Assembly (NCBI GenBank): GCA_902616005.1
Contig: CACMRG010000004.1
Span: 1-64,000 of the forward strand
Length of the DNA: 64,000 bases
Reading direction: 5' to 3'
From: an uncultured SAR116 cluster alpha proteobacterium
GTDB taxonomy: Bacteria; Pseudomonadota; Alphaproteobacteria; Puniceispirillales; Marisalimonadaceae
Within the stretch, counting starts at the first letter, position 1; each line of letters begins with the position of its first letter. The notes beneath the pieces were generated by a model. The model worked only from the letters and a program-made list of their open reading frames with translations, had not been told where the DNA came from and did no database searches. The position numbers and the translations under genes were made by a program. Below, piece by piece: positions 13,515-41,701 of this stretch.

Positions 13515-13759
13515 TAAATTCTCCTTATCATAATAATTACAACATTTAATAGTCAAATTAAACAAGCGTTAAATAATTTTAAAATGAATATTTTAAATTT
13601 TGATTAATATTTTCCCAAATACTATTTCTTCTAAATTAGAAATAATATATCTAATATTTATAAATAGTTTCCAAAATAGAAATAATTATTTTCTATTATT
13701 GTGTATTCTCTTTTATACAAGCAACAATTATAAATATCAAATAATCAAAAGGAACAGGC

Positions 13760-13984
13760 ATGACTAATAATAAGTTTATAAATACTATAACTTCTATTTT
13801 CGAAAAAATTGCGATTAATAGAACAAGACAAGCTTTGGCATTCTTATCAGACAATGAGCTTGAAGCAATGGGAATAACTAGAACTTCTTTAGATACAGGT
13901 GATTTCTACAATTACAAAGAAGTAGCAAATTTTCCAACTAAGAAAATAAGTAGAATTAAATCTACAAAATCTAAAGCTGCTTAA
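13760..13984 (+). CDS. DUF1127 family small protein
   Basis: This 74-residue basic protein carries the DUF1127 helix-pair signature (about residues 20-45: NRTRQALAFLSDNELEAMGITRTSL). An AAGGAAC ribosome site lies 7 nt before the ATG, and a 190-bp very AT-rich region upstream probably holds its promoter. In Rhodobacter a DUF1127 protein (CcaF1) is co-transcribed with CcsR small RNAs and has been linked to RNA binding. The same arrangement is visible here, with a CU-rich hairpin and terminator directly downstream. Confidence 0.88.
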   Translation: MTNNKFINTITSIFEKIAINRTRQALAFLSDNELEAMGITRTSLDTGDFYNYKEVANFPTKKISRIKSTKSKAA

Positions 13985-14072
13985 CTACAATTTTTTTTTC
14001 TAGATATATATTCCTCCTCCTCTTCTTATCTAGATTAAATAAAAAAAGGGTGAATAACTTCACCCTTTTTTA
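13985..14072 (+). ncRNA. candidate cuckoo/CcsR-like small RNA downstream of DUF1127
   Basis: The 3' region of the DUF1127 transcript forms two hairpins. In the first, TCTAGATA (13999-14006) pairs perfectly with TATCTAGA (14027-14034) and exposes a 20-nt loop containing CCTCCTCCTC (14013-14022), complementary to Shine-Dalgarno GGAGG. The second is a perfect terminator. This layout of DUF1127 gene, CCUCC-loop hairpin and terminator matches the alphaproteobacterial cuckoo RNA family by structure. There is no sequence-database comparison behind this call, and transcription is not shown. Confidence 0.6.
14041..14072 (+). terminator. Rho-independent terminator after DUF1127/small RNA
   Basis: AAAAAGGGTGAA and TTCACCCTTTTT pair perfectly around a TAAC tetraloop, and the stem ends in a T run. 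It closes the DUF1127 transcription unit before the DMT transporter gene. Confidence 0.92.
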
Positions 14073-14092
14073 TTGCATTGAACTTAAATAAA

Positions 14093-39994: not shown

Positions 39995-41701
39995 TTAATA
40001 CATAAAATATCTTTGTGCCATTGGTAAAATGTTAGCAGGTTCACATGTAATTAATTTTCCGTCAGCCTTAACTTCATATGTTTCTGGATTAACCTCGATT
40101 TTTGGACATGTGTTATTAAAAACCATATCTTTTTTTGATATGTTTCTGGTATTTTTTACTGCTACAAATTCTTTCTTGGTATCATTATTTTTCAGAATAT
40201 CGTTTTCTAAAGATAATTCACTAGTAAATATAACTGAAGATTTTTCTAATGATCTTCCAAAAGATCCAAACATTGGACGCGTATATACCGGTTGAGGTGT
40301 TGGTATAGAAGCATTAGGATCTCCCATTTGCGCACATGCTATACTGCCTCCAATTAAAACCATTTCTGGTTTTACTCCAAAAAATGCAGGATCCCACAAT
40401 ACTAAATCACCTCTTTTTTTCTCTTCAACACTCCCAATATACTTTGAAATTCCATGTGTAATTGCTGGATTAATTGTATATTTGGCAATATATCTTTTAA
40501 CCCTAAAGTTATCATTGTCTCCTTGTTCTTCAGGCAATTTGCCTCTTTGTACTTTCATTTTATGAGCAGTTTGCCATGTTCTTATAATTACTTCACCTAC
40601 TCGGCCCATTGCTTGACTGTCTGACGCAATTATTGAAAATGCGCCCATATCGTGAAGAATATCTTCCGCAGCAATCGTTTCTTTTCGAATTCTGCTTTCT
40701 GCGAATGCAACATCTTCAGGTATAGATTTGTCAAGGTGATGACAAACCATAAGCATATCTAAATGCTCTTCTATTGTATTAACAGTATATGGTCTTGTTG
40801 GGTTGGTAGACGATGGTATAATATTTTCTTCACCACATACTTTTATAATATCTGGAGCATGCCCACCACCTGCGCCCTCAGTATGAAAGGCGTGAATAAT
40901 TCTTTTATTGATTGCTTTAAGTGTATTTTCAACAAAACCACTCTCATTTAAGGTATCAGTATGTATCATTACTTGTATATCAAATTTATCGGCCATCGAT
41001 AGACAATTATCAATTGCTCCTGGAGTGGTACCCCAATCTTCATGAAGTTTTAGAGCACAAGCACCTGCCATGATTTGTTCCTTCAAACCCTCTGGCAATG
41101 ATGAGTTACCTTTACCAGCAAAACCTAAATTCATTGGGAAAGCATCTGAGGCTTGAATCATTCTTTGAATATGCCATGGACCTGGAGTACACGTTGTTGC
41201 AAGAGTTCCATGAGCTGGTCCAGTTCCGCCCCCTAACATAGTAGTTAATCCTGAATGCAAAGCATCATCTATTTGTTGTGGGCATATAAAATGTATATGA
41301 CTATCAAATCCTCCAGCAGTTAAAATTTTACCTTCACCTGCAATAACTTCTGTGCCAGGACCAACGACTATATCAACATTTGGTTGAGTATCTGGGTTTC
41401 CACCTTTACCAATTTTATTTATTTTTCCGTCTTTTAACCCTACATCTGCTTTATAAATTCCTGTTACATCTACAATCAGAGCATTAGTGATAATTGTATC
41501 TACAGCGCCATCTTTATTAGTTACTTGAGATTGCCCCATTCCATCTCGAATTACTTTTCCACCACCAAATTTTACTTCCTCGCCATATGTTGTAAGATCT
41601 TTTTCAACTTCTATAAATAGTTCTGTATCTGCTAACCTTATTTTATCACCGGTAGTTGGTCCATACATATCAGAATAAGATTGTCTGGTAATTTTCTTCA
41701 T
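39995..41701 (-). CDS. ureC: urease subunit alpha
   Basis: This 568-residue catalytic subunit is of normal family length. Nickel and catalytic residues are visible in [24 protein letters not shown] (carbamylated Lys near 220), [47 protein letters not shown] (catalytic His) and [14 protein letters not shown]. It hydrolyses urea to ammonia and carbamate. It overlaps ureB by 4 bp. Confidence 0.98.

Follow-up and report, generated by a model that had tools for sequence, protein, structure and literature searches.

The window, by which we mean the whole 64,000-nucleotide stretch of DNA analysed here, has a G+C content of approximately 30% and comes from a low-GC SAR116 (Puniceispirillales) lineage; its closest relatives with a name are single-cell genomes and MAGs of the SAR116 cluster. 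It contains a short gene for a 74-amino-acid protein, followed on the same strand by a hairpin whose loop displays an anti-Shine-Dalgarno (aSD) sequence and then by an intrinsic terminator. A first-pass annotation of this DNA had reported the gene, an 8-bp stem with a 20-nt loop and the terminator, and we confirmed all three at the positions it gave. The locus consists of the following features:

13668–13695, no strand assigned: promoter-proximal dyad TTTCCAAAATAGAAATAATTATTTTCTA, from alignments of upstream regions
13747–13755, + strand: Shine-Dalgarno region AAAAGGAAC of the small gene, conserved 4–9 nt before the ATG in the genus alignment
13760–13984, + strand: ORF of 74 aa, a divergent DUF1127 (PF06568) member of CcaF1-like size and position, from orthologues and the family alignment
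13985–13998, + strand: U-rich spacer of 14 nt from the stop codon to the hairpin, from the sequence, with a T run conserved in the genus alignment
13999–14034, + strand: aSD hairpin with a perfect 8-bp stem and a 20-nt loop, from the fold, an 11-genome consensus fold, relatives and an arm-swap control
14041–14071, + strand: intrinsic terminator with a 13-bp stem, a 4-nt loop and a T tract, from the fold and the 11-genome consensus fold

The arms of the aSD hairpin, TCTAGATA (13999–14006) and TATCTAGA (14027–14034), enclose the loop UAUAUUCCUCCUCCUCUUCU (14007–14026), in which the aSD stretch CCUCCUCCUC occupies positions 14013–14022. This loop and the tail of the host's own 16S rRNA, GATCACCTCCTTTCT, have CCUCCU in common. 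The terminator starts six nucleotides past the hairpin and, being symmetrical, may terminate transcription on the opposite strand too. The region 13985–14080 has a minimum free energy of -24 kcal/mol, compared with -7.9 in shuffles (z = -7.3); most of this stability is supplied by the terminator, and the fold alone is therefore little proof of the aSD hairpin. The U-rich spacer is a possible candidate for a processing region.

The 74-aa protein alone returned no match from Pfam at an E value of 0.1, and against PF06568 it scored 11.7 bits, under the 23.3-bit cut-off, although it was the sole match to this model in its genome. PF06568 was matched by 12 of the 18 family orthologues (best E value, 4e-8), and a same-genus orthologue with 69% identity matched it at 5e-6. 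Orthologues were found in 10 further genomes of the genus (69–99% identity) and in the family's other genera (43–59%), and the family aligns end to end, with T22, Q24-A25-L26, L29, D31, L34, G38 and R41 invariant. The earlier identification of a DUF1127 gene was thus upheld through the orthologues, including one of the same genus, and not through the window's own copy; on the basis of these sequence comparisons, we regard membership in DUF1127 as settled, with the name resting on the orthologues. Two genomes of the same genus (G006 and G011) are without the gene. The adjacent EamA gene is unmatched in G006 and has at most 30% identity in G011, which is consistent with the region being missing there rather than with loss of the hairpin.

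The first-pass annotation had argued that an exposed aSD sequence is unlikely to arise by chance here, because C-rich runs are rare. This argument did not hold: CCTCCTCC occurs 3 times in the window (0.38 expected from shuffles) and at 47 sites in the 1.66-Mb assembly, and rarity was accordingly dropped as the main argument against chance in favour of a conservation test. As many as 44 of the 47 sites lie inside long ORFs, many of them antisense to Gly-Gly codons, and the three non-ORF sites comprise two that resemble tRNA 3′ ends by sequence and the aSD hairpin itself. Because CCTCCTCC is the same read backwards, a reversed-pattern control tells nothing about it. In the conservation test, an aSD loop was found within 50 nt past the stop codon in each of the 33 named SAR116 loci that carry the orthologue, compared with CCTCC within 80 nt downstream of 1 of the 98 other ORFs in those loci. 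A relative that keeps DUF1127 and has lost the loop, the case that would have spoken against homology, was looked for in the family, and none was seen among the 33. The hairpin is present in one copy per genome and is always joined to the gene. From these comparisons, conservation is the strongest evidence against chance. The locus could instead consist of an unremarkable small gene and terminator, with a C-rich hairpin that arose by coincidence, as might be argued from the 47 genomic sites and from shuffled flanks; for each genus hairpin whose loop is CCTCCTCCT, these matched the stem quality in 0.4–1.1% of trials. Such a coincidence is already contradicted by the conservation in relatives relative to control ORFs, as well as by the two-hairpin versions in sister genera, and is hardly credible.

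Covariation of the stem around a fixed loop had also been proposed as a check, and it was seen between genera but not within the window's genus. Within the genus, the entire hairpin is almost invariant and no covariation was detected, 8/8 stem pairs being unchanged in 11 genomes. A single aSD hairpin is found in the window and in every genus member, and in the most divergent member, G010, the loop is shorter (ACCCUCCUCCCC) and sits on a 9-bp stem. Between genera, the stem sequences are wholly different and each is still paired, with the loop fixed. The sister genera g2 and g3 (e.g., L016 and L021) share the orthologous gene, the dyad, the aSD hairpin and the terminator, which is GC-richer there; unlike the window's genus, they have a second aSD hairpin. 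The first hairpin carries CCUCCUCCC in most g2 loci and the second carries UCCUCCCCC. Three stem pairs of the g2/g3 hairpins are altered on both sides. In genus g4, the stem is unrelated in sequence and 17 bp long, with a 25-nt loop around UUCCUCCUCCUC; this hairpin was identified by folding, since it exceeds the 22-nt loop maximum of the stem finder. In an arm-swap test of 12 lineages, each lineage's own arms formed 5/5 inner pairs in 12/12 cases and swapped combinations did so in 0/132, with the fair comparison being that among the f1 genera, since the f4 and class hairpins in the set had been selected by a pairing search.

The element also extends beyond the family. In the order-mate family f4, CCUCC lies within 60 nt past the stop codon in 16 of 21 DUF1127 loci, compared with 1 of 51 other ORFs, whereas an aSD element was found in 0/6 DUF1127 loci of family f2. 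The class-mate L224, with 58% G+C, carries several canonical UCUCCUCCUCCCU hairpins downstream of its DUF1127 gene. In one f4 genus (L107, L109–L112, L114, L115 and L118), CCUCC is located directly past the stop codon, unenclosed by any stem, and is followed by a terminator. CCUCC is also present in the 5′ leader of the DUF1127 gene in L103, L102, L090 and L094, as exemplified by TGGCTGG[ACCCTCCTCCCC]CCAGCCA, 40 nt ahead of the start in L103.

Upstream of the gene, the dyad TTTCCAAAATAGAAATAATTATTTTCTA is common to four genera despite divergence of the gene to about 45% identity, and is conserved more strongly than the protein. This genome has a single occurrence of its pattern, TTTCCANNNTRGAAANAATNAT; in most gene-bearing genomes of the family, the pattern is found upstream of the small gene and at few other sites. 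An RpoH-type reading (CTTG...CYTAT) of the conserved upstream block seems unlikely as judged by eye: no clear CTTG/CYTAT match was seen, and both spacing and sequence were a poor fit. Separately, g2 loci (e.g., L015 and L017) have a conserved inverted repeat, GAAGGAAT..CCTTC, about 40–60 nt before the start, in the position that the Shine-Dalgarno sequence takes up in the genes of genus g1.

The cuckoo RNAs, one of the known groups with which the locus can be compared, were reportedly defined in a 2015 paper by two to four adjacent hairpins. The window's motif, CCUCCUCCU, agrees with the cuckoo motif CCUCCUCCC at 8 of 9 bases, the last base being different, and the exact motif is found in G010 and, as described above, in g2. 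A further cuckoo trait, stems that vary while pairing is kept, is seen between SAR116 genera only. No Rfam model matched the locus at the gathering threshold, and a relaxed threshold gave matches at chance level. aSD hairpin RNAs are present in Rhizobiales, where cuckoo (RFMSmelA075, RFMSmelA099) has three or four hairpins, and RS0680a of Rhodobacter has two (PMC3927594). The SAR116 locus resembles the Rhizobiales RNAs in its aSD-motif loop and in the variation of stems between lineages (PMC3927594). It differs from them in carrying CCUCCUCCU on one hairpin in one copy, whereas Rhizobiales cuckoo RNAs carry CCUCCUCCC in several copies per genome. Strict cuckoo membership therefore fails on both hairpin number and exact motif, and the locus is better described as a reduced, single-copy variant of a known locus type, with one hairpin in place of two to four. 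The broader proposal, a lineage-divergent homologue of the DUF1127 and CcsR/cuckoo association, is well supported by the loop kept throughout the family, the re-paired stems and the two-hairpin sisters.

The association of DUF1127 with CcsR RNAs has been named the CIN1 locus, and in Rhodobacter the ccaF1-CcsR transcript is cut by RNase E with the assistance of CcaF1 (PMC10253847, PMC8625941). The CcsR RNAs bind Hfq and act in trans on flhR in the same organism (PMC8307010). Of the CIN1 traits, a short DUF1127 gene, a downstream aSD hairpin on the same strand and a Rho-independent terminator at the end were all found here. The arrangement resembles that of ccaF1-CcsR1-4 (RSP_6037) of R. sphaeroides, in which a small DUF1127 gene (71 aa, compared with 74 here) has the aSD RNA directly downstream on the same strand and an intrinsic terminator ends the unit (PMC10253847). 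It differs from the Rhodobacter locus, which has four CcsR RNAs and an RpoHI/RpoHII-type promoter, in having a single hairpin and a different conserved dyad upstream, with no RpoH promoter match recognised by eye; no Hfq was detected in the genus. SisA-D (alphaR8) of Caulobacter are comparable small RNAs that use a 10-mer aSD motif, but a term search of the paper on them gave no mention of a DUF1127 gene (PMC12559287).

We consider it probable that the locus is a reduced homologue of CIN1 (ccaF1-CcsR/cuckoo), that is, one transcription unit yielding an aSD small RNA with a protein partner. This explanation builds on the observed anatomy, conservation, change of stems between genera around a fixed loop, and near-uniqueness in the genome, and we infer beyond these the transcription as a single unit, the processing, the action in trans and the role of the protein. 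The unit would comprise a promoter with a dedicated dyad, the small DUF1127 gene, the aSD hairpin in the 3′UTR and the intrinsic terminator. By analogy with Rhodobacter, the mRNA most likely has a 3′ end (hairpin plus terminator, about 75–90 nt) that accumulates or is cleaved off as a small RNA, the CCUCCUCCUC loop of which would most likely pair with the Shine-Dalgarno sequences of other mRNAs and lower the rate at which these are translated. Processing or stabilisation of the RNA is probably aided by the small protein, as it is by CcaF1 in Rhodobacter.

Target prediction by extended Shine-Dalgarno complement gave nothing convincing and no enrichment: in 13 genomes, GAGGAGG followed by ATG occurred 126 times, compared with 117 for the reversed pattern. 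In this genome, only one start-proximal perfect GAGGAGGA site was found before a clear ATG gene, which encodes an AstE/AspA-like enzyme. Hfq (PF17209) was undetected in 13/13 genomes of the genus by a search that recovers it, among the control genomes, from Caulobacter and E. coli; with the completeness of each genome at 54–84%, joint absence through gaps alone is very unlikely, and a diverged Hfq is possible. Given that CcsR RNAs bind Hfq in Rhodobacter, the SAR116 unit would be Hfq-independent or would act differently. The unenriched targets, the undetected Hfq and the lack of an Rfam match all weigh against the preferred reading.

The unenriched complementary sites and the undetected Hfq, together with a single copy that is always attached to the gene, would also suit a role in cis only, in which the hairpin is a 3′UTR site for its own DUF1127 protein or a stability element tuning its own mRNA, with no trans-acting small RNA. 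DUF1127 proteins can bind RNA, as exemplified by CcaF1 (PMC10253847). Their role in RNA binding is debated, and Salmonella YjiS and Agrobacterium DUF1127 proteins work via protein contacts (PMC12501420). The conserved part of the hairpin, however, is an exact mimic of the ribosome tail in the loop, with stems free to change, which points to Shine-Dalgarno pairing, and the stemless CCUCCC past the stop codon in some f4 genomes argues against a shaped protein site. As the homologous CcsR RNAs, in addition, act in trans on flhR (PMC8307010), a purely cis-acting element is unlikely. The CCUCCU shared with the host 16S tail raises another alternative, a general decoy that rivals 16S rRNA for Shine-Dalgarno sequences and lowers initiation across many mRNAs instead of a small set of targets. 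The abundance of weak Shine-Dalgarno sequences and the scarcity of perfect complements fit such a decoy, but it would need very high expression from a single-copy locus, and the known effects of CcsR RNAs are target-specific (PMC8307010); we regard it as very unlikely.

Under the preferred reading of a reduced CIN1 homologue, marine SAR116 bacteria, which are abundant and streamlined, carry a minimal version of a stress-linked riboregulator locus, with one protein, one hairpin and one terminator in a single copy. Cooperation between DUF1127 and an aSD RNA should be easier to test there than where a genome holds many copies, and since Hfq appears to be lacking in the genus, it becomes a more pointed question which protein the aSD RNA relies on. 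More speculatively, and quite unlikely in our estimation, the aSD RNA and the DUF1127 protein might form a self-contained riboregulatory pair in this streamlined SAR116 lineage without detectable Hfq, with the protein as chaperone, and a multi-hairpin regulator might have shrunk to one hairpin and, in f4, to an unstructured CCUCCC past the stop codon.

Elsewhere in the window, the Rfam model 5_ureB_sRNA (RF02514) matched positions 41269–41548 on the + strand with 79 bits, antisense to a urease alpha-subunit ORF (39995–41701, - strand); this match probably reflects protein-coding similarity rather than an RNA gene.
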